Source of the DNA: Eunapius fragilis
Taxonomy: Eukaryota; Porifera; Demospongiae; Spongillida; Spongillidae
Direction: 5' to 3'
Assembly (NCBI GenBank): GCA_963681505.1
Contig: OY811977.1
Coordinates: 8,147,181 to 8,211,180 of the forward strand
DNA: 64,000 nucleotides
In this document: positions 4,861-32,190 of the stretch, piece by piece
Layout of the letters: each line of letters starts with the position of its first letter
Numbering within the stretch: position 1 is the stretch's first letter
The notes under the pieces: generated by a model
What the model saw: the letters and a program-made list of their open reading frames with translations, nothing else
Told to the model about the DNA's origin: nothing
The model's database searches: none
Position numbers and translations under genes: made by a program

Positions 4861-6150
4861 GTCCTTCATTGCATGGTTATACACATAATTATTGCAAGGG
4901 GTATACAAACTCCCAGCCTATAAACAAACACATAATCAAACTAAAACGCATCATGCTCAGATTATTTCTAGACAAGGCCCTAAGTGGCATTCGAATGCAT
5001 ACGTTAAGGTGTCCATATCTCGTCTGGCATCCCATTTAACTACAGTACTATCTGAAACCAAAGCAATCGTGTTCTCCAGTCTCTAGAGCGCCTTTTGCTA
5101 GTCTTCAGTCCGTATCTGAAGCTCCACACTGAATGCTTTACCGCAAGGGGTACACACTTCTAGCCTAACTTAATCGTTGCACGGAGTGCTTCCGAAAATC
5201 AACTGCAGCTGGCGTGCGTGTCAAACCAGCAGTGTCACCCACTTCTGAGATAAGAGCGGTAGAGTCATAGTCAAGTCAATGGCAGCCACTTATAATGCTA
5301 GGACACGTGATGCCTGACCATGGGGAACTTCGCTAACGTTTATCCAGTGCATCAGAGGAACATGGACATACAATTTATACACCTTGCTTTCTCCATTGAA
5401 CTGGCAGTCAATGAATCATTGACACCTCGTCGACATGTATAATGGCAAAGTAATTGGAGTATACAGATTGCAAGTAATTTCAGTCACATGTGAGGACTAG
5501 GCCGCACCTAATTCATGTTGGACACCCCTCTACCCAGAATTCCCGTATCCACCCCTGCCATATATACTTTGAACGCATGCATATTAGAAACATTATAGTA
5601 TCATGTGACCGCGTTGTTTACAGTGTTTTTACTGCGTTCAAGACGCTAAAATAGAGAACCCAATATAGCAGCCCTATGTAGAATTCAATTGCGTCGCGCA
5701 GTGAAGCGCTGTAATGTACACTCAAATACAGGACTACATGTAGCTGGCATTAGCGCAACGGTAAGGGGTTAAACCAAGTAACCAGATATATCGGAGAGGC
5801 AACAGTTGTCACATATTAGAGATATTACCGTGCATGTGTGTGCACTGTGCATGCAGGGTGTGAACCAGATCAAGGCGGCCCGTCGAGATGGACTTATATT
5901 AAAGTTTTCCTGCCGGAAAAAGGAAGGGTAAGGCTTAACATGCTAAGAAGGATGATGCGCAACACAATCTTCGCATTATCTGATACGCAGAATAAAATGA
6001 CTTCCATAGCTTTTAGCTCAGTGCTTTGTTTACACATAGCTATGGTAAACTGTCAGCAGCGATTTGATGATAGTCCAACTGTATTCAATAAAGTGCAAGA
6101 TGTACGCGCGTTGCATAGTTTGTGAATATAGAGCGGACGCGTGGGCGGAA
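4861..6150. other. Gene-free stretch upstream of the Mind-bomb-kinase gene
   Basis: Nothing recognisable apart from a family A terminus at 5541-5556. ORFs here lack family motifs and a coding pattern. Confidence 0.4.
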
Positions 6151-6155
6151 GCAAC

Positions 6156-6163
6156 AATATAAG
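6156..6163 (+). promoter_or_regulatory. TATA-like box
   Basis: AATATAAG lies about 50 bp before the predicted ATG at 6209. The spacing matches that seen at the CUB gene (TATA 38814, ATG 38873). The role is inferred. Confidence 0.4.
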
Positions 6164-6208
6164 TGTCAGAGCTGCCACTGATATACGTATGAGACAGAAG
6201 TAGAAACA

Positions 6209-9200
6209 ATGGGTGGAGGTCAGTCAGCTCCAAAGGTAAAATTGATTGATTGGTCCGGCATGTCGTTTGTGTGTGTCCAAAATATGTGTGTGCATGTCAT
6301 AGGGATAAATGATCGCCAATCAAAACATGATTTACAACTTATTGAACACCTGCATTCTGATACAGGTTGTATATAGACTGCATCGGAAAGTACACATCCT
6401 CTATTAGGACATTGGTTCTCGATCAAGCGTATATTTTTTAGATGATTCCACGAGTTTTTTTGCTGCGTGTGCATGCATATGTGTGATGACAACTTTAATA
6501 ACATCCTAGCTTTAAATCATGCATGGACGAATCAGCATGTTTTTAAAGCGCACTTCTAAATGTATATAAGTGTTCACATTATTCATAACCTAGTTCAGCA
6601 ATTTTGGCGCACTGGAGTGCAATCAGTAATAGGTAATCATAGTCTTTGAATTCTAATAAATGATGACGTTCTGTTCCATGCGTACATATGGTAGGTAGCG
6701 CTGCGCTAGGGATGCTTCAATTAATCAAATGTAATGCATGATTGCGAATTCTTTCGTATAGCCTAGTCTGAATAATGTTTTGTCAGCGGAAGAAAAGCAA
6801 CACCGTTTTGCATTGTGGGCATCGCCGCAATCTCTCTTTTTAGGAATTGTGTTCGTAAAAATTACCAATTTCCGTTCTTTATTAGTTTGCTATGGCCATA
6901 TAGCTAGATCTGACGAATGCACTTTCGAGATTTACCAGAATAGATAAATTATCCAAAGAATAAAAACTGATTAGAAACGCAGTGACTACATGCACTGATG
7001 ATTGCATGCATTTAAAACAGTTCAAAGTTGGTGATATAGTCCGAGTCCAGAATAACGTGTCTGCAGTTCGAGAGCTTCAGAAAGGCCATGGAGGATGGAA
7101 TGATGACATGGAAAAGGTTAGTAGTTACTCTTCAAGAAATCATAATCGTATCATTTACATAATTGTTTGGTACAATCAGCATAATGCTACCTTAGGATAG
7201 CCCGGAAACAACACTGGATGCTTTGAATTAGTGTTACCCTTATTCTATATGCAGTGCTTGGGAAAAGTTGGAACAGTTAAACATTTATATTCAACTGGTG
7301 ATGTCGTAATAACCATGGCTGGCAATCTGTGGGCATTCAATCCCCTATGTTTAATTCCTGCTCCTGGACAAGTGCCTGATGTAGGTGGAGGAGGAGGAGC
7401 AGGAGGAGGAGGAGGAGGAGGAGGAGGGAGTGATAGTACAAGTAAGGCTACATGTACAGTCCTATGTGATAGTTGTTCTTTCATGCAGCTAGTTGTATAG
7501 TGATTTAAGGGAGTGAGCAGATTAAAGTGCACGTAGTAGTCCTACATACATTTCTGTATTCACACATTAGTGAACATCACGTTAACATTGTCTTGATTAA
7601 AATACACTTAATAACCAGCTTCCATTTAGCATATTTAGTTTCAGAATTAAGATTGTTTTTGAGAATCAAGTACACAATATATTCAATTTTCTAGAGCAAG
7701 AATAATGCACCTTATATGATTAATTAAAAATACATTTCGATTTTCAATGAATCCTTTCATGGAGAACTTGCAGGCCTATTTATCCGCAAATGTATCATTG
7801 ATGCATTAACCATAAGCTGATTTTGATATTGCAACCTTGCCGGAGACCTCCCAACCATATAAGTCAGAAAAGCTAAGGAAAACTAATTTCAGCATCCATG
7901 TGTAATTACGCTTAATTCATGAATTGAGCAATATGCAGCAAAGTCCAATAGCTGGGCTATTCTCATATTGATGGCTGCTTAAACTAGTACTATACATACA
8001 TGTATAAATGATACAATCATTTTTTTTGGTCATCAATCTGAGAAAGAAAACTCAAGAGATGTCCCCTCAAACACTGGGCTCTTTTTAGGCATAGCAAACA
8101 CCAAACCAGTAGTGTGCTTAAATATTTGTTTATACTTGTGTATATGTTTATTTTCCTTCAACCATGTCTTTTTCCCATGCAACAGTTGATGGTATGGATT
8201 TAGTCAAGCTTCTACTTGCTGCAGCAGCAGCTTCATCTGGTTCTGAAAGACCAGCAAGAAAGGTGATTGCTTCACATGAATAGATTGCAGAAGTTTGGGT
8301 TTACCAGGGTTTGCCCAAATTGAACATTTTCAATTTGCAACTTTTTGGTACATTTTAGTAGAGTATTTTATTTCCTTTACCCTTGCTTTTTTAACGTAAA
8401 TGGTATGTTATAGATTACAAATGTTTCCCTTGTTATATGTAGCGTACAGAATACTACCATTTGGTTGTAAATCTATGCATTCTGAAGTCACATCAAAATC
8501 ACTACAAAACACTAGTATTCCTTCTCCCATTGATTGGTTCAGATTTGGTTTTGTCACTGAGGTGCATTAAAATGTAAAATGATAATCATTTTCTTTTTCC
8601 TTATTTTTTTCAGTTCAACATTGGCGATTCAGTTCGTATACTTGCTGATGCTGATGTTGTGCGCCACCTGCAGGAGGGTCATGGAGGATGGATTGATGCA
8701 ATGGCAGCAGTATGTTCAGGAATGTGGTATCTTAGTGGTACTATTAAGGATTGATTTCCTTTCATAGAGTATTGGACAAACTGGTAAAGTATTGAGTGTG
8801 GACAAAGATGGAGATGTAAAAATTGCAGTAAAAGGTGGCACTTGGACATACAATCCACTGTGCTTGACACCATTAAACAAGGATCCGTCATCAGGTGGAT
8901 CAACGTTATCAGGTAATGAATTTAACAGAAAGTTCAAAACCTCCTGGGAGGTAGTGAGATTTGCATGGTTGTTAATTATTACCCATTGTCTTATTTTAAC
9001 ACATATGTCATCCTTACACATACGATGAGCATGAAACCACATTGTATGTCTGCAGTGCATCAGTATTGTGTCACGTTTTTCTGTAACTGGCAATAGTATA
9101 TTATGCCAATATGACCCTACAGATATGGCAAAGGTGAAGGCACTGATGTTAATGTCATCAGCTGTTTCTGGAAAAGCTGATGAAGTCCGAAAAATACTAC

Positions 9201-12200
9201 AGGCTAATCCAGAGCTGGTATGATAGTGCAAAAGCAAAACATGTATTAATATTCTGCAAGTAATTTTATCTGGTCATCAAATTAAGACCATTTACTGTAG
9301 ATATTATTTCTAGACAAATTCACACTCCAACAGCTAAATTCAGTGTTGTTGAATAAGAGTGAGCTGCTCGTGTTGCTACTGCCATAAAGGTTATCGGCTA
9401 ATCGCATTTTCACATGATCTTCAAAATTGTAAACCACAATGTTGATCCTCCATCTGATCAATTATTCTCATTTGCTGACATAAATCACAACACACACGGA
9501 TACAATGGTTTGAGACTACAAAGATCTTTCATGTTGAGAATTTTTTTTCTGTTATAGTGTTACACCAATATGGAACTTTCTGCCCAACTCAACTAGAACT
9601 GTAGAGATACTTGTCAATACCTTTCTAATGTAGACCTCTCAAAATATTTAACTTTTACTCCATCCATTTAAATAACTGCTACTTAAAAACTCTATCTATT
9701 CCAATCAATCCATTGATCCTCACATAGTTGATGGGCAATTGTACATATACTTCAGAGTTCTAGAATTAATCATTGGCAGAATTAATTTTCCAGTTGCAAA
9801 CGTATTATAATTTAATAGAGGTAACATTTCCATCCATTCAGATAAGCTGTACCCCAAAATGCAGGACAATTTTTTATACATCAAATTAACATTCCCTTGT
9901 GAACACACAATCGCATAGTAACAAAGATATAATCTTTTTTTTACTGTGGTGCAAGAATGGGTAATCTTTATTGTCTATGCTTTCTAAGCATCAGAAGTTC
10001 AACCATATTAATCGTGGTAATCAATTTTCCATGCTGCTTTCTTTGAATGTTAATAGAATTACATCTAGTTCAAATGTATTAGTCTCACTGTTTGCTCTGC
10101 CCAATCCAATTTTTTCTATGAAAATGCCTGGAACCATTTACCCTCTGTCTCAGCTCAACATTGTTTGGCTTCATTCAATATAGATTACACTTATATAACA
10201 TGTGTTATAATTTTACTTCATTAGGCATTATTACCTTTCAGTGCTTGCCTGATAAATTGATATCAATGTCCATTCACCAGGATGATTTTCAACATTGCAT
10301 TATTCCTACACATGAATTTGCATCCCTTTGTTCATTCTAGATTCATTTATGGTGCAAAGAAAATTGTTTTATGAAATGATTATAATGTACATGTTAAGTG
10401 TGCAGCTGTACTATACAGTTTGTATTAGAAAACATCATTTCTTTCAGGTCAATGTGCAGGTCTCCAACAAGTCTGCTCTTCACTGTGCAGTGGCAGCAAA
10501 CAGTTTAGATGTATTAAAAGTTGTGCTGGAATTTAAACCATACCTGGAAATAAAGGTACCATGATTTTTTATGCAGCTGAATATGAATGGTAAAGGTTTC
10601 TAAATAAATAGGATGAAGATGGAGATACACCTCTTCATCTAACTGCACAAAGGTATTCCTCTCAATTGCACCCATGTACATATTATTTAGTAGTGTTGAC
10701 ATTTTAAATTACCAGTTTTCATGATTTTTAATAGGGATAATGATGAAATTGTGGAACCTCTGTTAACTGCTGGAGCAAATGTCAATGCAAAAAACAACAA
10801 AGGAATCACACCACTCATGATAGCCGCAGCAAAGGGACAGCAGAAGGTGACAAAGATGCTCTTGAAACGACCAAACATTGATCACCAACTGCAGGTAAAC
10901 CAATCATCAGAAGTGTTGCACAATATTAGCCACAACAACTTGCGCACCTAGGACAAAGATGGGGACACTGCTCTTCACTATGCTGTAGCTAGAGACAAAG
11001 TTGAATGCCTGGCATTGCTCTTGGAAGCAGGTGCAAATCCAATCTCAAGGAATGAGAAGGGTTTTACTCCAATGCATGAAGCTGCAAAGAAAGGATTTGT
11101 ACCGTAAGTGTTTGAACTCATTTTATTTTATGAACTTGCAATCGTGGAAACAACTGAAAAAGATTTTTATATACTAAAAACTGTGACATATATGAATGTG
11201 CATCTTGCATTTCATCATATATGCTGGATGATGTATGTAATCTGTACATCATCAGTGTCATTGAGATGTTCATCAAAGTCACCCCTCAACATGTAAACAA
11301 TAAGAAAGATGATGGATATACAATGCTGCAATTGGCTGCTCTGAATGGAAACATTTATGTTGTTAATGCTCTGGCAGCTTCAGTAAGTTGTACCGACATG
11401 CATAAACATGCAACCGGTATGCAATTATCTGTATGAATGAGAGACTGGTAAACATTCCTGTGTTCCTTACATATACATCTAACAGCCATAGCCATGCAGA
11501 CAAGTTGTTAAAGAAAGTTTGCGTACAGCAACCGAAAAAAAAAACTTTGATTAGGGACTCAATTAATATGCATTCAACACAAGAACCAAATACCAAACTC
11601 TCTAAAATTCTGTATCCCCATTGCTAATTTACCTTCTGACCTCATGCAATCTGCTGTGTAATATCTTCAATTCTGTCTCCTCACTAGTGAGCAAAGGACA
11701 TTATAAACAAACTAAGCCATAACTTCATGGACTCCATCTCACTGATTATAACAGTAGCTTAACTCTAAGACTTTCCTTTATAAAAAGTACAGAAATGCAC
11801 ACTAAAGAATGAGGATTAGTCCACAGCCCCCCTTAAGATTGAATAGATGCATTATTTAATGTATTTGCAGTTTGACTTATTATAAACATGAACGTTAGAT
11901 CCGACGTATATATCAGTATATGCTAAGAAATAAAAAGAAGCAAACACAAGCTGTTATATGCATAATAATGTAGCCACATTCTAAGTGCTAATTATAGGAT
12001 TAGGTTATTGGTAGTGTTAAAACTATACTTGGTAACAAGGCACTAGTCCAATTTATAGCATTGCACACATTATAGTCTTGTATCCCTCACAAACTTTATA
12101 GCAATGCGGTAGGAAATTTCTGGTAATTGAAAAAATAAGATTAGTTTTTCCACAACAATAGGAGCATTGTGACCTTGATGTAAAGAATGCTCGTGAACAA

Positions 12201-15200
12201 ACAGCTCTTCATGTTGCTCTAATTGCTGGACAACTGCCAATCGCAGAGCAACTAGTTGGCTATGGAGCAGATGTTAATGCTGTTGACAGAGATGGTGATA
12301 CACCCCTCCATTATGCCTTTGTGCTACCTAAGATGGCAGCACCATCAAAGGATACTCCTCAACTGCTTAAGGTATAGATATGTTTTATTTATGACATTCT
12401 TCATTCTGATTTAAAACAAAAGGTTCGTGAAAAGCTTCAATCCAAGCTTCCAACTGATGCTGAAGCAAGCAACAGGATCACATGGGCAGGCTTTCTGGTC
12501 CAGGAGGGTGCCAATACTGATATTAAAAATAAAAAAGGAAGGTTTCCTTTGCAAACATGTGAAAATCAATATGCCGAGGTTATCATGCAGTTAAAAGCTA
12601 CAAAAGGGTATGTATGAATAATTCAATACCTAATCTGCTGTAACGATCCAACAAAATCAAAAGACCCTGCCATGCTTTCATTTCAATTCCAACAATAAGA
12701 GCTGGAGTATTACATTTGGTATTTTAGGCAAAACTGTCACAGAGGTTCCATTGTTCTTGCTATAATGTTTACACTATAGTGCTTATATCAGATCATTTGC
12801 AGATCATTTCGAGGATGTTTACGCCCTAAAAAATCTGGTCATTCAGAAATTGAACGTGTAAGTTGTAATACTTCACATTAATATTGTCAATGCGTTTGTT
12901 ATAGACCTGGTATTGATGGCTGATGGGTATAAATATGTTCGCGTACTCAAGCAGCATGCATGTACATTTATTATGATAAGTTTTAAGTACACAAGACTGT
13001 GAGGTATGTTTGCATTCTTAGAATGCATAGCTATGCGATTTTGAACAAGCAGTGGTGACAAGCCATGGATCATTACATTTGTAGTAGAGAAGGCAACGGA
13101 TGCTCTATATAATATGCATGGTTGAGAATTAATCACACGTCGTCACGAGTTTAATCAACACATGAATAAGCGACCAAAAAAATTACATCTAAGCAGGTAT
13201 TAAGAATTCAACCGATTAGTAAATCATACGTTTACTTTTTAAACATCCCAGTGAATGACGTTTTGATCAATATCACAAAGTGCTAGCCATGCTATAGCCT
13301 GCAGCTGGCTTGGAACAATGACATAGTTGCAGCTCGCAACAACGGAAAATAAGACATATTCATCGTGGAGTTAATTGGACTGAAAGCCATAGCGCAACCT
13401 TACCGTTTTCCATCATAAAAATCAAGGCTGGTCCAAATCAATCGATGTAAGCACAAAAGTCATGATGCATAGGTTGCGCTATGAGCACCAGTTAAAGCAT
13501 TCCAACTGTACGATGACTATGCCTTAGACTTTTCGATGTTCCAAGCGTACAGACCTTATTCGACCTCGACATGAATTCATAAATGTCATACACTCATCCA
13601 ATGATTGTTCAGTTAGGTTAAAATGGGTAACGGTGATTTCATGCATTGCGCTAGAAATATTGAGCTGTCACAGTTTGATGTATCAGTGCACATTTATTGC
13701 TAACTGATCAACTTAGGCACTGTCTTCTTCAAGAAGTGAAGGTAGGTCTGGTCACATTAGAAATACAATTGTTTCAGTATCGTTAAATTGCACAGGGGAG
13801 TTTTCTGATATCGAGCTGAAAGAGAAACTTGGAGAAGGAGGGCAGGGAGCTGTGTACAAAGCTATGATGAAGTCTAATGGAAAGTTAATCGCTGCAAAGA
13901 AAGTGAATATAGCATCAGTAGGCACTGCAGAAAAAGAGGTAAACTACCCCTCACAGAGCTGCAAGTGTCATTAGCCACGTTAACTTCTTCTTTAGCTATC
14001 AGCTCTGAAGGGGATAAAGCACAAAAACATTGTGAATTTCTATGGAGTTGCTAAAGACCCTGAAGGAGGCATTTTGTTATTGATGGGTAAAATATTATTA
14101 GAACACTAACACATAAACACTATAACTGAACATTTTATTCAGAACTTGCGGAGGGTTCCTTGTACCATGCAGTTCGCAAGCTTACCCCTGACACCAGGAG
14201 AAGCATAAGTTGGGCCACTCAAGTTGCACAAGGTGGCTACACTAGTGCAAACTTTACACCTTTTTATTTCCATGATTCGTTTGCAGGAATGCGTTATCTT
14301 CACTATGATGCCCCTGATACAATACTGCATGGCGATTTGAAGTCCTTAAATGGTTAGCAATTTAGATATTTACTTGACAATGTATATTTATGTGCTAAAA
14401 AATCACCAAACAGTGCTTACATTTCCATCTAACATTGTAAAAGTGAGTCTTTGTTATGGGTTTCTTAGTTACGATATCTCTATGTACATCATCAGATCAG
14501 TGATTTTGGTGCTGCAAAGGTTTTCAATGTAACACATGCAACGAGTACCGCCATTAGTATTTTGTGGTCAGCCCCAGAGGTATGTAATCTTATTTGCATT
14601 TTGCGTATAAATAAACTAATAACTCAACCCATTCAATGCCCTATTGTAGTTATTCTCAGCTACACAGCAGCCTAACCTTGCCTGTGATGTTTACTCTTTT
14701 GGCATACTGCTTTGGGAGATGGTAACCCACAAGGTGCCATATGATGGAATGGGCCTTGAAGCCATTCTCACTCAAGTTGTGAAGAACAATCAGGTAATAG
14801 CTGTGTTATCCAGAGTACATATCATATAATAATTCTTCAGCGTCCTGATATTCCATCATCATGTCCTGAATTCATGTCAGCTCTGATGAAACAGTGTTGG
14901 GACAGTGATCCCAAGGTACTGCAATTGTGAATTGATAATTGATATGTTGCAAAATTTACACATTCTTTAGAAACGGCCTACATTCAAAGCAATCCTCCAG
15001 ATATTGGAAGAAGAAAAAATAAAGGTGTGCAACTTACATATAGTATACTTTTTTGTAATGGGCAATTAATTATACGATACGGATTCAAAAACAATTTCTA
15101 GTAATCCTTCTGAGCTCAAGGTTCATGCAGTAGAGGATGGGAAGAAGGGTAGCAGGGTAATTCCTTGGCCAGACTATTACTTTATTTAATCAGTCTCCAT

Positions 15201-17325
15201 CCGTGGCATGATAAATGTTATAGGCTGTTTTTTTTTTTTCAAAACTGTATCCCAATTCACATCATTATATTAATATTGGCATTCAGTTCAGCAAGAAACT
15301 CTGAAGATTCTTATCATAATGAATAGAAGTCTGTATTAAGGTTTGCCCGCACGCACAGACTGATACTCAGTGGCCCAGGCAAAGCTTATTTCTCTGGCCG
15401 TAAGCTAAAAACGCTTCGACTCAATAGAATGCAACCTTTGTGTGCGGATATAATAAGTAGACAGTACGGTGGTAAAAGGATATGTTTTTCATCATTCTGT
15501 TAATATTTCTTTAATCCAGACACCTACAAACAACAACCCCAATCCTGTTGCATCTGAAGGTATTATATTTAATTCCATATAATATATGCAATTAATGGTA
15601 GGAGTGTATGAACAATTTGGAGAAGGTGGTGGAACATTTAAGAAGGTTCAAATGAATGCCTGCAAAGTGGGCCACCCAGATGCCCCGTCCCCTCTCCCCA
15701 AAATCCACAATGCTACAGAATGTCATAAAAATATGACTTCATATAGACTGATAGCTACTTGAACAATGAAAATTATCTAATGTTTTGGCACATTCTTCAG
15801 CACCTCATCAAATGCATTAAGAACTGCACAACAGATTAACTTATTGTTTAATGGTGACAATTTTCTGATTCAATTGCACAATTATTACATGCAGTTTGCA
15901 TGAATACGGGTATTTAAAACTCGAAAGGTTAAATTAATTGCTGCATGATGAATAACAAATTTATGAGAAATAAGGTTGTGAACTACTGTAATGTAGTTGG
16001 TATGTATTTATCTTTCAAAAACCAACAGATGCATCAACAAACGATATTGAGCTGAAAGAAAAGTTAGGATCTGGTGGTTTTGGAATAGTTTTTAAGGCAG
16101 TGTGGAAATCTAAGAACATGATGGTGGCTGTGAAAAAAATTCCCATGAAAACTTCTGAGAATATTCAGAAAGAAGTATAATTACGTGCAGGTTTACATGC
16201 TCATTCAATGATATATAATCGTAGGTATCAATTATGAAATCTGTGAGACACAAAAATATAATACAACTTCATGGTTATTATCAAGACCCTGATGAAAACT
16301 ACTTCATCATACTGGGTTTGTTGGGGAGATAACCTTGTCGCCTATTATATTGCATCTCTATAAATGACAGAACTGGCTGAGAATTCGTTGGACAAAGTTT
16401 TAAAGGCAACTTCTCCGCCAGATACAAGAAGAAGCCTGAACTGGGCCACTCAAGTAGCCAGAGGTGGGGTATTTTTAATTTCTTAATCGTTGGTCTTTTG
16501 CATTCTTATTATGCATGTTTTATATATCCCAAGGCATGGCCTACCTTCATTATGATGCACCTGAAACAATTCTCCACGGAGACCTGAAGTCTATGAATGG
16601 TAATTATTAAAATTTAACAAAAAGTTCATATATCACCGCACTGTTGTCACGAAACAGTACTCACATTTCCTAATGATGTTGTGAAGGTGAGAAAAGCTTC
16701 ATTTTAACATGTCCATGAACAAACAAAATCTCACTCCCAGATAACTGACTTCGGGAGTGCAAAGTACATGGATGCAACACGTCAAACAAACATTAACATT
16801 ACTTATGCTTGGTCAGCTCCTGAGGTATGTAATTAAAAGATTAATTTTAATCATTTACAATTGTGTTAATTTTAGCTTTTTAAGAAAAGGCAAAGACCAA
16901 ACCTGGCATGTGATGTCTACTCCTTTGGTATTTTGTTATGGGAAATGGTGACACACTTGGTACCTTTTGATGACTGTGACAATCCGCAAATAATTGCTAC
17001 TGTTTCAAGTGGTGATGTATGTTTACTATTAAAATCATCTCTGCATCCTGCTAAATTCTCCCCACTCCCTTCCTCAATAACTATATATAGCGCCCTGAAA
17101 TACCAAAGGATTGTCCTGACATGCTTCAAATCCTTATGACAAAATGCTGGAGTAGCGATCCAGCGGTAAGCTTTTGACCATAGGTTTGCGCATGCTGAAT
17201 TCCATGAGCGCATTCATAAAAAAGTCGCTTGCTACGACATAATAACTTTTGCACTACAGCTACGACCCAATTTCAAGACAATTATTCGTACACTCGAGGA
17301 CGCTGGCGAGAAAGAATTTTTTTGA
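6209..17325 (+). CDS. Mind-bomb-type REP / ankyrin / tandem protein kinase protein (about 36 exons)
   Basis: Exons read from GT-AG sites with matching phases: 6209-6235, 7021-7116, 7255-7441, 8186-8262, 8614-8709, 8768-8912, 9123-9217, 10448-10555, 10612-10652, 10735-10894, 10952-11103, 11256-11382, 12162-12371, 12423-12607, 12803-12857, 13717-13741, 13796-13938, 13996-14086, 14143-14232, 14287-14352, 14414-14442, 14496-14579, 14650-14793, 14841-14915, 14971-15024, 15115-15156 (uncertain), 15520-15559, 16029-16174, 16225-16315, 16371-16463, 16534-16599, 16658-16686, 16741-16824, 16876-17016, 17091-17165, 17260-17325; about 1144 aa. The N-terminus MGGGQSAPK fits N-myristoylation. Two REP repeats (residues about 10-100 and 130-205) and ankyrin repeats (about 215-570) match Mind bomb. 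Two TKL-like kinases follow (about 600-850, 886-1140). The usual N-terminal MIB/HERC2-ZZ modules and C-terminal RINGs are absent. Predicted role: membrane-tethered signalling kinase. Function is inferred; domain identity is strong. Confidence 0.88.
7021..9217 (+). other. Duplicated REP-repeat exon block of the Mind-bomb-kinase gene
   Basis: Exons 7021-7116 and 8614-8709 are both exactly 96 nt, phase 0 at both ends, and encode paralogous segments (FKVGDIVRV..LQKGHGGWNDDM and FNIGDSVRI..LQEGHGGWIDAM). Each is followed by a phase-1-ending exon with the second REP half (GKVGTVKHL..FNPLCLIP and GQTGKVLSV..YNPLCLTP) and then a phase-0-ending exon. This is a tandem duplication of a three-exon cassette. 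The first copy also encodes a GGA-repeat poly-glycine tail (7386-7430). In Mind bomb the REP repeats bind the tails of Notch ligands; here the ligand is unknown. Confidence 0.8.
13335..13485. repeat. Intronic foldback related to the 46.4-47.2 kb repeat family
   Basis: In the 858-bp intron after the last ankyrin exon, AGCCATAGCGCAACC (13387-13401) is matched by an inverted copy near 13468-13484. The neighbouring CTCGCAACAACGGAAAATAAG closely matches the core of the foldback at 46735-46780. A small MITE sits inside this intron. Confidence 0.6.
13796..15024 (+). other. Kinase domain 1 exon block (non-RD, TKL-like)
   Basis: Nine exons of 143, 91, 90, 66, 29, 84, 144, 75 and 54 nt. Visible motifs: glycine loop GEGGQGAVYKA, ATP lysine in IAAKKV, alpha-C glutamate in TAEKE, catalytic loop HGDLKS.N (residues about 718-725), DFG (about 738), SAPE, and DVYSFGILLWEM. 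The catalytic lysine, aspartates and asparagine are all present, so an active kinase is expected. The Arg of HRD is Gly, making it a non-RD kinase. The YLHYDAP..IL segment before the loop resembles ZAK/MLK-type MAP3Ks. Confidence 0.85.
16029..17325 (+). other. Kinase domain 2 exon block (non-RD, TKL-like)
   Basis: Nine exons of 146, 91, 93, 66, 29, 84, 141, 75 and 66 nt, mirroring block 1 in order, size and phase. Motifs: GSGGFGIVFKA, VAVKKI, HGDLKS.N (residues about 1006-1013), DFG (about 1026), SAPE, DVYSFGILLWEM. It ends with the stop TGA at 17323-17325. The HGD form is shared with domain 1, so it predates the duplication. Confidence 0.85.
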
Positions 17326-17947
17326 ATATCTTGATATAACTGTCGATAGATAGCTATATTGTGTGTGGCTGTATCAAAAATTAATGGACCATTGTATGTA
17401 ATATTTTATTAATTTCTCCAAAGCTTTTTTTTAATTTGGCATTTGATGCCTCTTCACTCATTGAAATGTGCTACGGCATGTATCCATGACGTAGATCATT
17501 ATGTATAGTTCAAGGACGCATAGCATACATGCGCTACTTTCATTGCACCTCATCGGTTACGTATACATATGGTTTGCCATAATTATGATTGGTGTTAAGC
17601 TCTGTTGTATAGGACTAAGCATAGCTTAGCTAGTGCTACTGATTCCCCTGGACTTATAAAGAAGAACGGACATGTAATTAAATAGCGTCACCAACCTCCA
17701 TGTGGCACTTGATCGCTTTAATTAAAGATCAAGTAGAACATCTACATGGAATGAAGTGGAGGTAAGAGCTCTATACCTAAATCATGTTAAATATACATGT
17801 GCTATAAATTACAGGCAATACACTGTGAAGGTGTTTATATGTGGTGACTATTAGTTCCTTGTCTAAGATGTATGGCTTGTCAGGAGCCAGTTGTATGCAG
17901 TAGTATACTAAATGCAAGCATGATGTGAAATGATGACCATGCAATAG
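17326..17947. other. Gene-free stretch
   Basis: AT-rich spacer after the kinase stop codon. No clear AATAAA was found close by. A short imperfect inverted repeat (TTGATC..GATCAA) lies near 17708-17733. Confidence 0.4.
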
Positions 17948-19342
17948 GATGCTACCCTTGCCTATACTGCAAAATTCACAGTGACCAGATGGCTACACCT
18001 CTAATCGTTCGAGGGCATGGCAAAGAAAGGTCACTAGAGGATATGTGTGCTGACCACCAGTGCTATGTATCATCAAGGAGTGTTAAAAAGGATGCACAGA
18101 TGTTCTTTAACTGCATCTCAGAACCTATTTTTGACATCCCTGTTTCACAGGTAAATGAATCCAACATTACAATTATTCGAATTACACCATACAGGTCTGC
18201 CCACCTGGTCTCCACATCATGTTGGGGATCTTCACAAAGATTTTCCATCTGCTGGAAGCTCTATGCTGTCAACTGGACTTGGAACTAACATCTCAAACAA
18301 CTGATTTCGACTCCTCCAGTTTTTCCAAGTACAGCCAGGTGCTGCAAAGGCTTCCATTGCTCCAAGCAGACCTTGAAACTGCCCAGTATACACATGAAGT
18401 GTTGCAGCAGGTGGCAACATATGTGGCCTTAGTTCATGGAAAGAAAAACCCTCTTGCTGTGGATCTTTTGAAGCAATCTGCTGCAAAAAAAGAGATCAGT
18501 GAAAGCACTTGTAAGTCATTATCCAACATGAACAATTGTATTCAAGTTAGTTATAATAGGAAGCAGAAGTGGCCAAATGCACAGCAAATGTGAAAAGAGG
18601 GTACTTTGAAAAAGAAGGGCCCTTTGTCAAGACACTTGACAGTGCACTACAATCATTTGGAGTTCAACGACAGCAGTATTTTTGGGGGGCATTTATTGGC
18701 AACCATGAACACAAGGCATTGAAGGTAAACCGCTATACATGGGGATATGAATAATTCATACCACTTAAATAATTATTAGGTACCAAACATCCAGACTCTG
18801 TGCACATCTATATCTCAGTTGGCACAAGAGAAACTGCCCCACCGATCTGGAGAGGTAGCTGATCAAGTGACTAAGTTCATCACCGCATTCTCCTTGTATG
18901 GAAAATGACACAATATATGTGATCAGAACTTCATTAATGCGACACAAGCACATGCACTAGACCTGGTAAGTTAACAATGTTCAGTGTACATGTAGGGCTC
19001 ACTTTATGCTCCATTCTAACTAACTAGGCTATTCAAGAGTTCATGGCCTTTTTCCGAGACACATATCCAGAAGCAACAGTCCCAATTAAAATGAATCTAT
19101 TAGAGGATCACACTTCACAGTGGGCAAATAGTAATCACGTTGGCTTTGGCCTCCTGGGTGAACAAGGAGCTGAGTCAATCCATGCCAAGTTTAATCAACT
19201 TGGCTTGGTATTTGCTCCCATTAAAGACCGGGTGCAGAACCTGAAGTGCATAATGAAAGAACACTTACTAAGTATTGAGCCACAATTGGTAGCTGCCATC
19301 CCTCCTCCGGCTAAGAGAGTAAAGAATACTATAGCTATGTAA
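17948..19342 (+). pseudogene. Multi-exon member of a repetitive invertebrate family (HVGFGLLGEQGAESIHA), one in-frame TGA
   Basis: Exons inferred at 17948-18150, 18195-18510, about 18564-18724, 18780-18965 and 19028-19342. The first exon is entered from an acceptor and carries a zinc-type CLYCKIH pattern just before ATG 17989, so the true N-terminus lies upstream or is lost. Later blocks are VCPPGLHIMLGIF, QQYFWGAFIGNHEHKALK and, near the end, LLEDHTSQW followed by HVGFGLLGEQGAESIHAKFN. I recall this combination as a multi-copy family in cnidarians and sponges, probably transposon-associated; the GEQGAESIHA motif superficially resembles the RAG1 C-terminus. An in-frame TGA at 18906-18908 interrupts the fourth exon. 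Function unknown. Confidence 0.6.
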
Positions 19343-21309: not shown

Positions 21310-22262
21310 GTGACACCGCCGTGCTTAGCCACGTTAGAAGAGTGGCTTATGTTGAAGACTTCTTTGAGATACTTCACAGGGTGCATTGCCAAAAGCGAGG
21401 TCATGTGGGCTACAAAAAAACTTTTGCAGAGGTATTCTGGTAGAATTTGTTTCATGAATATTATACAGTATAATAGAGTATGGTTTTTACTATTACAGAT
21501 TTCGGCATGCTATGGGTATCTTCCACGGTCAGCTGTACAGACGTTTATGAGCCTGTGCCCCCTTTGCAGTACTCAAAAAGTACAGCGCAATCAAGCACCC
21601 CTGAAACCCATCATTGCATCAGGATTTATGAGTAGAGGTCAGGTGAGTTACACTTTATGCACAGCAAAACAAAGTTGACAGTGGTGTTTAACAAGCTAGG
21701 TTGACCTAATAGACATGCGCCACCGACCTGATGGACCTTATAATCGGATAGGACACTACATGGACCATTGGTCTAAATTCCATGTACTGTTTGCCCCTCA
21801 GAGGAAGAGTAGCAAAGAGGTGGCCTGGAACCTTACAACAAAAGTTTTTGCATATCTTGGTTTACCCAAAGTATTGCAATCTGACAATGGGCGAGAATTT
21901 GCAAGCACTTTGATAGCCAAATTAGTAAAGAACTGGCCTGGTGAAATTACCATTGTCAATGGCAGAGCACGCTATCCTCAAAGCCAAGGACTGGTAGAAA
22001 GAGGCAATGCGAAAGTGGAAGAAATGATAGCTTGTCATTTTCATGAAAGCAAGGGAACTAAGTCCTGGATGGACTGGCTACATGAAATTCAATTTAAGTA
22101 TAATTATCTACTACATCAGTAAGTGATAATTTTAATTGCAGATAAATTGAACACTTGCGTGCATGCAACAACAAAGACAACTCCTTACCAGCTGGTGTTT
22201 GGTCAACCTCCTCATTCATCACCATTTCCTGGTACATTGTTATGGAAGAAGCAGTGTCTGAT
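21310..22262 (+). CDS. DDE integrase of the Ginger-like element (multi-exon)
   Basis: The upstream part shows an HHCC-type pattern (HCQKRGHVGYKKTF, then FMSLCPLCS). The core has the first Asp in VDLIDMRHRPDG, the second in LQSDNGREF and the Glu in SQGLVERGN, with 37 residues between the last Asp and Glu, as in retroviral-type integrases. The downstream exon carries TTPYQLVFGQPPH, the usual follow-on block. The catalytic core lies at about 21701-22122. The enzyme would cut and join transposon ends in the nucleus. Several introns are used and the whole is probably not functional. Confidence 0.75.
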
Positions 22263-24050: not shown

Positions 24051-24120
24051 AATCCTGCTATCAGGAAAGTGATTTAGAGTTGTATCCTGGTAGTAGCTCA
24101 TCAAATGATGCATTAAAGGG

Positions 24121-24330
24121 GTGAAAGGGTGGAAGGATGAGAAACTCATTAGGTTGCGTGAGGCTTCAAAGAGGCAGAACCCTAGTAATAAATTCTATGG
24201 AGACAATTGCTCATGTCAGAAAGGCTGCTCATCGCAGCGATGTGGTTGTGTCATTAAAGGTAAACCATGCACTAGCCATTGCCATGGAGGTAGGCCATGC
24301 CAAAATGAAGTGGAGCATATTACTCCTAGA
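24121..24330 (+). other. Cysteine-rich CRC/tesmin-like motif in the Ginger-like element
   Basis: The reading CSCQKGCSSQRCGCVIKGK followed by CTSHCHGG and CQN has the C-x-C-x3-C spacing of CXC/tesmin motifs. Such motifs bind zinc and DNA in host proteins. Here it sits between integrase and protease, suggesting a DNA-binding part of the same polyprotein. Confidence 0.6.
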
Positions 24331-24587
24331 CGCTCATCCAGCAACAGCACAATTGAAGGAAAAGATGAAGCAAAGCTTATTTCTCCTGGAAGCGCACCTA
24401 GCAACAGCACAATAAAAGATGAAGCAGAACTAATTACATGTACTTTGGAGGCTCACAGTACAAATCGAGAATATTGCTCATGCAAAATGACTGCTCATCC
24501 AGTTTGTGTCCTGAAAGATAAAAAAATGCAGCATGCAATGGAGGGAAATCATGCAAAAATGAAGCAGAATGTATTAATCCTATTTGG

Positions 24588-25040
24588 GTGTCTGAACTAA
24601 GTTTAAATTTAGATGACAAGAATGCTATCCTTTTAGGTGATTGGTTGACAGACAAACACATCTCTGCTGCTAACCAATTACTTAAAAAGGGATTTTCACA
24701 GTGTAAGGGATTAGACAATCCAATTTTGGGGGAAAATTTTTCATTTCCTATCCTGAGAGGAGAGGGTGTTCTAATGTTACATGTAGATAAATCCCATTGG
24801 ATCTGTGTGTCAACAAGTGGATGTACTTTTAGGGAATTAAATGTATATGACAACCGACTTACCACTCTCTCTCTCTCTCCAGCAACACTTAAGGTCTTCT
24901 TCACTGCACTGAGTAAAAGTGACGTGACTGTCAATATCATGCAATTGCAACAACAGTCTAATGGAAGTGACTGTGGGGTGTATGCAATAGCATGTGCAGC
25001 ATCTTTGTGCAATGGAGATGAGCCATCAGACCAGTGCTGA
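24588..25040 (+). CDS. Ulp1/SENP-type cysteine protease domain (C48) of the Ginger-like element
   Basis: About 150 residues with the full catalytic set of the Ulp1 family: His in KSHWICV, Asp in LNVYDN, Gln in QQQSNGSDCG and the nucleophile Cys in SDCGVYAIA. The family cleaves SUMO-like modifiers or processes polyproteins. It is probably the last exon of the transposon gene, and the part after the stop still resembles a tail. The uninterrupted catalytic core suggests a fairly young copy or retained constraint. Confidence 0.75.
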   Translation: MSELSLNLDDKNAILLGDWLTDKHISAANQLLKKGFSQCKGLDNPILGENFSFPILRGEGVLMLHVDKSHWICVSTSGCTFRELNVYDNRLTTLSLSPATLKVFFTALSKSDVTVNIMQLQQQSNGSDCGVYAIACAASLCNGDEPSDQC

Positions 25041-29670: not shown

Positions 29671-32190
29671 TCAGTACAGTGAAGAAATGTGGTGGATCAA
29701 GCAATCACGCCCTGTGCCGGAACTGCAAATAACCATGATTGCACCACCAGTACGCTCATAACAGGTGGAACAGAAAAATGCCGCCTTTTTGCTACAGATG
29801 ATGCAGCGTCGTCTTGCACGATAGTTGCATATTGATGTTGACTCTGCAGATTTCCTTTTCTTCTCACCATATGTTGGCAGAGTGTGCAGGGGTTTCAGGG
29901 TGTGAATGGCTTGACAATTTCTAGCATGAACCGATTCCTGTTCATTAGAAAAACCACTTGCCCTAACAGCATAGATATCACTATTGATTAACTGATATGC
30001 CAATCTGTCTACATACTCACGGAAATCAACTCCTGACATTTCTGCTGGATGAATATATCTGGATGCATAGTAGCAATCTGTTACAATCACTCCAAACAAT
30101 GTAGACAAGACCCTGTACACCCAGTTTCGTGTAAGCCAGTGCTGCTCCAACTTCAATATGCCTTGGCGCATGTGATCATGCACATCAATGAAATGGAAGT
30201 TGTCAAAGTAGGAGGCGACAATGTTGCAGCGAGATGTTGTGCGTAGATAAGGATGAGTACTGACCCCTTCATCGGCTGAAACCACCACCTCCTGGCGTGT
30301 ACGTGTTGCAGGAGTACTTGGAAGTGTTGTGCCACAAGTGGACACCAGGTCTTTTCTCTTGCCATCCAACCATCCAACAGCAAATAACTGGTGGCCCTGC
30401 ACATTTGCACTGAGTGCAACATGATCACCCCTTTTGGAAAAGTCATGAGTTCCCATGAATTGCTTCGGATACATTTTATGGGCTGCTTTCACTATGCCAA
30501 TAAAGTATGTACCATGCTGTTTCAAAGCTACTGCTGTGGCTACAGAACTGAAGGCGCTGTCTGCAATAACAATATATGTGCTTTACCATGCCATGGAGCT
30601 GACATGCGTAAAGTTACAGCTGTTCCAGAGCCATATTCCTGTTCATAAAGTTTGCTGCACTGACGCAATGCTCCTTCACAAAGCTCAAGACGCATCATTA
30701 TTGAACTCTTGCAGTCTATAAGTGCCTTTAGCTCTACCCCAACACCCTTTGGTTTTCGCTTTATCTTGGTTTTGTGTGGTATGCCATTCAAAGAGTAGTC
30801 AGCCTCCAGACCCAGCCAGGAACTCATTATTTCATCTAATAGAATAAATGTCCCAGGACTGACAACTTTTGTTCTGTTGGTATTGAAAGCATCAATGAAG
30901 CATTGCACTGGTAGCCACGGGTTATGCAGCAGTTCCAGATCAGAGAACTTGCCAAACTGCAAGCAAGAAAGAATAGCATCATACCTGTTACGGGACATAC
31001 CAAACCTTGTGCCAAATGCAGCAGGCAAACAACAACTTTCAACATGCATCTCAGTCCGCCACAGGTCACGACCTTGTTCTTTGAATAGAGTCCTTGCAAA
31101 GGTTATGCCAAACCACTTCTCCATTTCAGTTGAGGTAGTTGGTGGCAGCCCTCCCTTCTCCAACAGGAGGGATGTGTTCTGAACACAATTGGGCATTATG
31201 TCATAAGGGAACAATAACTTCCAAATGGAATAGAAATTTCCAAAATCAGGAACTACTCCATTGGGGAAGTTGATAATAGAGTTCTTTGGCTGATCCCTGC
31301 ATATGTCCATTGAAATGCATTCTTCTAGTGTCCACTTCAGTCCATGAGCTATCAGAGGATTTGTTGCATCATCCTCTGGAACAGTAGTGCCATTTCCAAG
31401 CAGCTGTCGCATACTCTCATCGGGGATGTCATCAAACATTGGTTGGTCTTCTGTACCAGATTCATCACAGTCATCAATGCTGGTGTCTTGGACTGCTCCC
31501 TGAGTATTTCCTTGCTCTCTATCTTCGTCAAAATTAGACATCAAAGTCTCTTGAGGAGGACATGCCGAAGGCAACTGTAATGGAGGTGCCAACTGTATGA
31601 CAGCTCCAAGTGAGACGACGGCTGCTTCTAAACCGGCTTCACCTCCACCTGATATAGAATCATAGAACATTTCTTCAGTAGTATAATTTATAGCCTATAT
31701 GCTGTTGATAATAAAGTGCATAGCCCCCACAATAGATAGTTTAGAAACTATCTATGCCCCCACATCATCGTCCCTTCCAGCTCCACTGTGCCCACACATC
31801 ATCCTCCCTTCCAGCTCCACTATGCCCCAACGTCATCCTCCCTTCTAGCTCCACTATCACCAAAAGACTTACCTGCAGCAATAAATGCTTGCTTTACTTG
31901 GTGTGGTGAATGTGGAAGGAATGCTGGGTCCCATTGAATGGCTCTAGAAGTCACTTCTTGTGATTTAGAATCCTGTGGGTATCATCAACCTTAGTTAGTT
32001 TCCACATGTAAATGCCATCCTTGCACTGAGGTGCAAAATCTACATGACTTACACCCTCGAATAGGACATGGTACTTGGAAATTGTGCCCTCAGTAACCAC
32101 TTTCTGAATGACCCCTTTTCTGTTCATAAATTTTTTGATCTTACCTAAAATACGGTCATTTTGCTTCAGAGGTTGCTTTTTTGATGGCAT
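29671..32190 (-). CDS. piggyBac-type transposase (DDE_Tnp_1_7), two exons, one frameshift
   Basis: A first exon (from ATG 32190 to donor at 31873) and a second (31648 to 29671) are joined by a canonical GTAAGT..CAG intron. Exon 1 carries KIKKFMNRKGVIQKVV and a chromo-like tail; near 31965 its frame must shift to reach QWDPAFLPHSPHQVKQAF. Exon 2 shows FGMSRNRYDAILSCLQFGKF, the first acidic block LLDEIMSSWLG, GIPHKTKIKRKPKG and, after a one-base frame change near 30585, VIADSAFSSVATA, then LSTLFGVIVTDCYYASRY. It ends with a zinc-type CIICSKKAAFFCSTCYE. These are the usual order for piggyBac transposases. The copy is disabled but recent. Confidence 0.85.
31765..31857. repeat. Minisatellite of about 33 bp in the transposase intron
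   Basis: About three tandem units of the form CATCATCCTCCCTTCCAGCT followed by CCACTATGCCCCA. Confidence 0.75.

Follow-up and report, generated by a model that had tools for sequence, protein, structure and literature searches.

A Mind bomb-type REP and ankyrin scaffold joined to two kinase domains in a predicted gene family of the sponge Eunapius fragilis

Mind bomb proteins join client recognition to a RING output; they control the endocytosis of Notch ligands and, in the case of MIB2, the cell-death kinase RIPK1. A TKL-type kinase and ankyrins are combined in RIPK4 and ANKK1, where the kinase stands ahead of the ankyrins and REP repeats are absent. In one study, the human pair MIB1–JAG1 and the fly pair Mib1–Delta are alike in that the REP repeats bind the C-box and the MZM binds the N-box (PMC11887331). 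The same study reports that the MZM matters more than REP in the fly protein and mediates most of its activity, and that fly Mib1 deprived of the MZM seems to behave as a REP-dependent dominant negative (PMC11887331). In a second study, binding of RIPK1 by MIB2 also requires the MZM (PMC5912950).

We analysed a stretch of 64,000 nucleotides from the sponge Eunapius fragilis (hereafter the window). Splicing by hand, checked by script, confirmed the predicted REP–ankyrin–double-kinase gene at 6209–17325 on the forward strand. The model comprises 36 exons and 3429 bases, encodes 1142 residues and carries a single terminal stop (Table 1). All 35 donors are GT, all 35 acceptors are AG, and the reading frame is kept at every splice joint. 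A spliced alignment of the Ephydatia muelleri protein Em0017g635a against positions 5501–18000 gave a score of 3249. On four control stretches of 12.5 kb elsewhere in the window, two of which overlap, the same protein scored between 61 and 138; the reverse strand gave −25, and the shuffled protein 98. Chance joining of frames was rejected, since no control exceeded 138 against 3249. Membership of exon 26 in the gene is doubtful: this exon of 12 residues (15121–15156) has a weak acceptor, and the frame stays open without it. Exon 27 resembles positions 8445606–8445642 of a paralogue on the same contig (C7_8420001). Exon 16 is a separate exon in three of the paralogues on this contig and lies within a longer aligned exon in the fourth (C7_8755001).

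Table 1. Parts of the REP–ankyrin–double-kinase gene, with positions in the window
Feature	Position	Strand	Evidence
Exon 1, start codon; MGGGQSAPK, N-myristoylation-type start	6209..6235	+	ATG, in-phase GT donor; paralogue counterparts
Exons 2-3: REP repeat 1, then glycine-rich linker	7021..7441	+	PF18346; MIB1 4tse/4xi6
Exon 4: linker between REP repeats	8186..8262	+	In-phase splice; conserved in paralogue 8420001
Exons 5-6: REP repeat 2	8614..8912	+	PF18346 residues 130-194, profile 1-67 of 67
Exons 7-14: ankyrin array, at least 8 repeats	9123..12607	+	PF00023, 8 stretches; PF12796, E 1.3e-48
Exon 15: residual MIB2-type tail GSFRGCLRPKK, proposed fusion boundary	12803..12857	+	Aligned with sponge MIB2-like tails
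Exon 16: short linker	13717..13741	+	In-phase splice; recovered in C7 paralogues
Exons 17-25: kinase 1, ZAK-like; AAK, HGDLKSLN, DFG, APE	13796..15024	+	PF07714, 178.6 bits; PDB ZAK/MLT
Exons 26-27: inter-kinase linker (exon 26 uncertain)	15121..15559	+	Splicing; paralogue similarity of exon 27
Exons 28-36: kinase 2 (AVK, HGDLKSMN, DFG, APE) and stop codon	16029..17325	+	PF07714, 203.1 bits; exon lengths parallel kinase 1

The 1142-residue product was scanned against Pfam in four pieces, including residues 1–209 and 210–568. The original prediction of two REP repeats in the exons between 7021 and 8912 was borne out: the Mind bomb SH3 repeat profile (PF18346, SH3_15) matches residues 1–209 in two stretches with 154.1 bits (cut-off 24; E 1.1e-45). 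The predicted ankyrin array was recovered as eight PF00023 stretches within residues 210–568, and the double-kinase output followed by a stop as two complete PF07714 domains (PK_Tyr_Ser-Thr; E 1.9e-52 for kinase 1 and 6.4e-60 for kinase 2). NCBIfam returned nothing above its cut-offs, and Rfam and tRNA scans of the whole window were empty. Elsewhere in the window, two overlapping open reading frames on the reverse strand (29671–31694) match DDE_Tnp_1_7 with E values of 3.5e-21 and 1.9e-10. They apparently represent one split element, which we take to be a piggyBac-like transposase. On the forward strand, an integrase core (rve) fragment at 21700–22119 matches below the Pfam cut-off (E 9.8e-6), and at 24109–25037 a cysteine-rich frame accompanies a frame resembling, by eye, a C48 (Ulp1-like) protease, and Pfam matched neither of the two.

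The scaffold, kinase 1 and kinase 2 might be two or three adjacent genes that were wrongly joined. Introns 15, 26 and 27, which lie at the domain joints, are longer than the introns within the kinases, exon 26 is doubtful, and at the paralogous locus C7_7925001 kinase 2 sits 10.4 kb downstream of kinase 1. Against this, the domain order is the same at four other loci of the contig and in a gene model from Ephydatia that is independent of ours, and no AATAAA or ATTAAA occurs in introns 15, 26 and 27. Such hexamers are present in four of the five remaining introns longer than 300 bases, and one is located downstream of the stop, at 17677. A further observation comes from two related loci on contig C4, where the last ankyrin exon is separated from the first kinase exon by an intron of 46 bases, with the frame kept across it. 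An intron of this size leaves no room for a gene boundary between ankyrins and kinase. Separate genes were rejected on this ground, and misjoining of the window gene is very improbable.

The best PDB matches of the REP part are the MIB1 structures 4tse and 4xi6. A phylogenetic tree was calculated from the REP and ankyrin regions (29 rows, 488 columns, LG+G4, unrooted), with 22 of the 120 proteins listed by the search and seven rows from the sponge genome. The window family, Em0017g635a and a second Ephydatia protein, Em0017g892a, form one group with 100/100 support. This group adjoins sponge MIB2-like proteins, and together they are split from MIB1 and from the MIB2 of other animals, again with 100/100. 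Four of the MIB2-like rows are unnamed metagenome proteins, and a Geodia row, although its source names it mib1, clusters among the MIB2-like rows. Thus the derivation of the REP-REP-ankyrin part from Mind bomb, as originally proposed, holds by structure match and tree, but its kin are sponge MIB2-like proteins rather than MIB1.

The window protein shares with MIB2 and sponge MIB2-like proteins the two REP repeats, a colinear ankyrin array and an [ST]FHG tail motif. The tail encoded by exon 15 aligns with GTFHGSLRR of the Ephydatia MIB2-like protein and STFHGSLKR of its Amphimedon counterpart, in both cases behind the ankyrins, and the motif reads GSFHG or GSYHG in the other copies on the contig. 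Because exon 15 matches these tails, the kinases start where MIB2 continues to its RINGs, which agrees with the earlier proposal that the kinases occupy the RING position. The window protein differs from MIB2 in having kinases and a putative lipid anchor where MIB2 has the MZM and RING. Pfam found no MIB_HERC2 or ZZ domain (the MZM) in residues 1–209 and no RING in the four scanned pieces, and the protein terminates after kinase 2. Em0017g892a, assigned to the same scaffold family by the tree, has an LRAT domain in front, one matched REP and no kinase in its model; it is possibly another fusion or a mis-joined gene model. As a separate observation, the window's contig has an LRAT match some 100 kb past its last family member.

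ZAK/MLT (MAP3K20) is the best solved relative of kinase 1 (E 8.3e-56). For kinase 2 an EGFR entry comes first, followed by ZAK (E 1.3e-50), TAK1 and MLK. MAP3K20 shows 38–39% identity in a protein search with the double-kinase part, and among the 120 proteins listed only Em0017g635a exceeds 39%. The window protein differs from ZAK in having two C-terminal kinases and HGD in place of HRD; moreover, the Pfam scan found no SAM domain, which in ZAK stands behind the kinase. Like RIPK4 and ANKK1 it combines a TKL-type kinase with ankyrins, but it has REP repeats, and its REP and ankyrin parts group with MIB proteins.

Both window kinases contain the β3 Lys, the αC Glu, the catalytic Asp, DFG and APE, and the set is also kept in both kinases of three of the four other copies on the contig. 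The arginine of HRD is replaced by glycine in both kinases of every copy there. The two kinases are identical at 136 of 249 residues. Their exon lengths are nearly equal: 143, 91, 90, 66, 29, 84, 144, 75 and 54 for kinase 1, and 146, 91, 93, 66, 29, 84, 141, 75 and 66 for kinase 2. Therefore the two kinases are products of a tandem duplication, one being derived from the other. In a kinase tree of 20 rows, from which five other kinases of the genome, kinase 1 of C7_8755001 and the weak kinase 2 region of C4 were left out, the kinase 1 and kinase 2 groups each include the Ephydatia counterpart (support 99.7/100 on the kinase 1 side and a modest 83/74 for kinase 2). The duplication thus probably predates the split of the window lineage from Ephydatia. 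Kinase matches are also numerous, and often clustered, in long open frames on contigs C15, C18, C3, C21 and C14 (136 of 401 candidates scored), which is a sign of kinase expansions there.

The best database match to the window protein is Em0017g635a, an unnamed gene model of Ephydatia muelleri with 60% identity over 99% of the query (BLAST, 120 proteins listed). The two proteins have the same REP-REP-ankyrin-kinase-kinase order throughout, match over their full length and are identical at 700 of 1108 aligned residues. Em0017g635a differs in its start (MLSCNNEVISE), with no myristoylation-type exon, and carries no functional description. In the whole-protein and double-kinase searches, 7981 and 7986 candidates sharing most words were scored, with the best 120 listed for each, so that rarer relatives may have escaped both. 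A search with the REP part only passed 8 of 7980 candidates and was probably flooded by glycine words. The original prediction had also known of no described protein of this layout. We found no description of a REP, ankyrin and double-kinase protein in the open-licence literature, PMC2770060 included, nor any mention there of the Em0017g635a identifier. The layout does, however, exist in the databases, as this unnamed Ephydatia protein.

The predicted nine-residue, myristoylation-type first exon is backed by its paralogues. N-myristoylation starts follow the rule MGxxx[STAGCN]. Three of the five loci on the contig begin with an MGG[AG]Q exon: MGGGQSAPK in the window, MGGAQGKPSKE at C7_8530001 and MGGAQGKSSKE at C7_8755001. 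Each splices in phase to the first REP exon, and both MGGGQS and MGGAQG fit the rule. No such exon was found at C7_7925001 or on C4; the upstream region of C7_8420001 is partly N, so that the first exon there was only partly searchable. The window protein is likely to carry an N-myristoyl membrane anchor, judging from these starts. The annotated start of Em0017g635a contains no myristoylation signal and counts against membrane anchoring.

The window gene is not a singleton. It belongs to a family with five loci within 0.85 Mb of the window's contig (C7) and two loci on contig C4, in addition to the Ephydatia relative. The genome searched comprises 218.9 Mb in 24 contigs, with some N stretches. 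A profile search with PF18346 gave 25 matches: 16 on C7, six on C4 and three on contig C9. The four other C7 loci have REP, ankyrins, kinase 1 and kinase 2 in the order of the window gene and are 84, 82, 74 and 71% identical to its product. The number of REP repeats varies, with additional matches at C7_7925001, C7_8755001 and on C4. Short linker exons proposed by the aligner (for example several in C7_7925001 and C7_8755001, and in the kinase 2 region of C4) are not credible and were not used as evidence.

The two C4 copies (11.40 and 11.48 Mb) have ankyrins and a single kinase of the kinase 1 type, and REP matches lie only near the second copy (11.48–11.50 Mb). The alignment at 11.40 Mb reads through the intron that follows the 46-base one (60 bases in the other C4 copy), hence its two stops. 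Both C4 kinases have HGN at the catalytic Asp motif and are probably pseudokinases, to judge by this substitution. Very long single-frame ankyrin genes were also noted in this genome, on C4 at 1.464–1.471 Mb (3310 residues) and on C17 at 5.365–5.372 Mb (2086 residues).

In the assembly, damage is seen at two of the five C7 loci. C7_8420001 (8.42–8.45 Mb) and C7_8530001 (8.53–8.56 Mb) are near-identical and about 107 kb apart, with kinase 1 sequences 99.2% identical. The REP1 exon of C7_8530001 (about 8.535 Mb) has lost two bases relative to C7_8420001, which breaks the frame; this may be a real lesion or an assembly error. In C7_8755001, kinase 1 (about 8.769 Mb) is broken, its C-lobe being lost, and an 82%-identical piece is inverted nearby. 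These two lesions, together with the loss of the catalytic Asp in both C4 copies, are what would be seen if the family consisted of decaying duplicates without function. The window copy, however, has neither an internal stop nor a frame break, and a relative is retained in Ephydatia.

Selection also speaks against decay. Pairwise dN/dS ratios (Nei-Gojobori) were calculated for five domains. Between the window gene and C7_8420001 they are 0.217 for REP1, 0.223 for REP2, 0.242 for the ankyrins, 0.127 for kinase 1 and 0.551 for kinase 2, and across all five domains and the four other C7 copies they range from 0.127 to 0.584. The window gene is thus under purifying selection in comparison with these copies, on the evidence of the substitution ratios, and functionless decay can be given hardly any weight. 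Kinase 2 is the least constrained domain, with ratios of 0.55–0.58 between the window and C7_8420001 or C7_8530001, a strong difference that may reflect relaxed constraint. Relative to the window, the kinase 2 of these two copies is 64% identical and the kinase 1 is 93–94% identical; kinase 2 either evolves fast or was exchanged. The two copies form a young pair, so that few changes stand behind the ratios between them (0.28 to 0.77).

The genome retains a canonical MIB1, as judged from a gene on C9 (1.69–1.70 Mb) in which spliced alignment finds MIB_HERC2, ZZ, REP, ankyrin and RING parts, and which groups with MIB1 at 100/100 in the REP and ankyrin tree. Total loss of Mind bomb genes was rejected by this gene. 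The MIB_HERC2 profile (PF06701) matched eight times across the genome, but on neither C7 nor C4. The Ephydatia MIB2-like protein, used as a query (48 of 737 candidates scored), gave 93 matches, every one of them to its ankyrins. No canonical MIB2 appeared among the 25 PF18346 and eight PF06701 matches of this genome, some stretches of which are N; Ephydatia and Amphimedon, by contrast, possess MIB2-like proteins.

With a canonical MIB1 in the same genome, the family could act as a natural antagonist or decoy, its REP repeats and ankyrins occupying clients or Mind bomb complexes and thereby blocking ubiquitination, with the kinases in a minor or regulatory role. The apparent REP-dependent dominant negative obtained when fly Mib1 lacks its MZM (PMC11887331) provides a precedent, and scaffolds persist at the C4 loci with their dead-looking kinases and at C7_8755001 with its broken kinase 1. 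A decoy would not readily explain why kinase 1 is the most constrained part between the window and C7_8420001, nor why both kinases keep their catalytic residues in four of the five C7 copies. We consider this reading unlikely.

The family might otherwise be a lineage-specific MAP3K of stress or innate immunity, in which the REP repeats and ankyrins would sense a pathogen or damage ligand and the ZAK-like kinases would feed JNK/p38-type relays, with clients other than those of Mind bomb. Non-RD kinases are common among immune receptor kinases, and the HGD of both kinases in the C7 copies is of the non-RD type. The nearest solved kinases include MAP3Ks (ZAK, DLK, TAK1 and MLK for kinase 1; ZAK, TAK1 and MLK for kinase 2), the family is amplified on C7 and C4, and kinase 2 diverges fast between copies. 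The REP core of the window gene is nevertheless well kept, which fits retained binding of MIB-type peptides equally well. An immune or stress function of this kind is rather unlikely.

The explanation that we prefer is a change of output on a Mind bomb scaffold. A MIB2-like gene in a sponge lineage would have shed the MZM (MIB_HERC2-ZZ-MIB_HERC2) at its N-terminus and the RINGs at its C-terminus. A ZAK-like kinase would have been gained directly behind the ankyrins, followed by a tandem duplication of the kinase block. The protein is probably a Ser/Thr kinase that N-myristoylation tethers to the membrane. Its REP repeats and ankyrins may pick up clients, whether C-box-like tails on membrane ligands or different MIB2 partners, and kinases 1 and 2 may act on the client by phosphorylation or set off a MAP3K-type relay. 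We give an even chance to a membrane-tethered Ser/Thr kinase that gathers REP or ankyrin clients and either phosphorylates them or starts such a relay. Several findings count against this explanation: the best known client-binding module, the MZM, is missing; the best solved match of kinase 2 is an EGFR entry and not ZAK; damage affects two C7 loci; both C4 kinases have lost the catalytic Asp motif; and kinase 2 may be under relaxed constraint. The original prediction went further and suggested that the protein phosphorylates what Mind bomb ubiquitinates. Because the MZM is absent, any clients in common with Mind bomb would at most be those of the REP repeats or ankyrins, and this putative overlap is at best partial.

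The broader proposal is that MIB2-type recognition has moved from ubiquitination to phosphorylation, and that a family of seven loci, comprising intact, damaged and dead-kinase copies, replaces the canonical MIB2 that was not found in this genome. We hold this proposal only tentatively.

The joining of the recognition part of Mind bomb to kinases amounts to a natural experiment that separates reader from output, and the family could reveal which portion of Mind bomb works as a portable reader of clients. It also offers a natural variant devoid of MZM and RING for comparison with the engineered dominant negative of the fly, and an example from sponges in which a swap of enzyme output can be put to the test.
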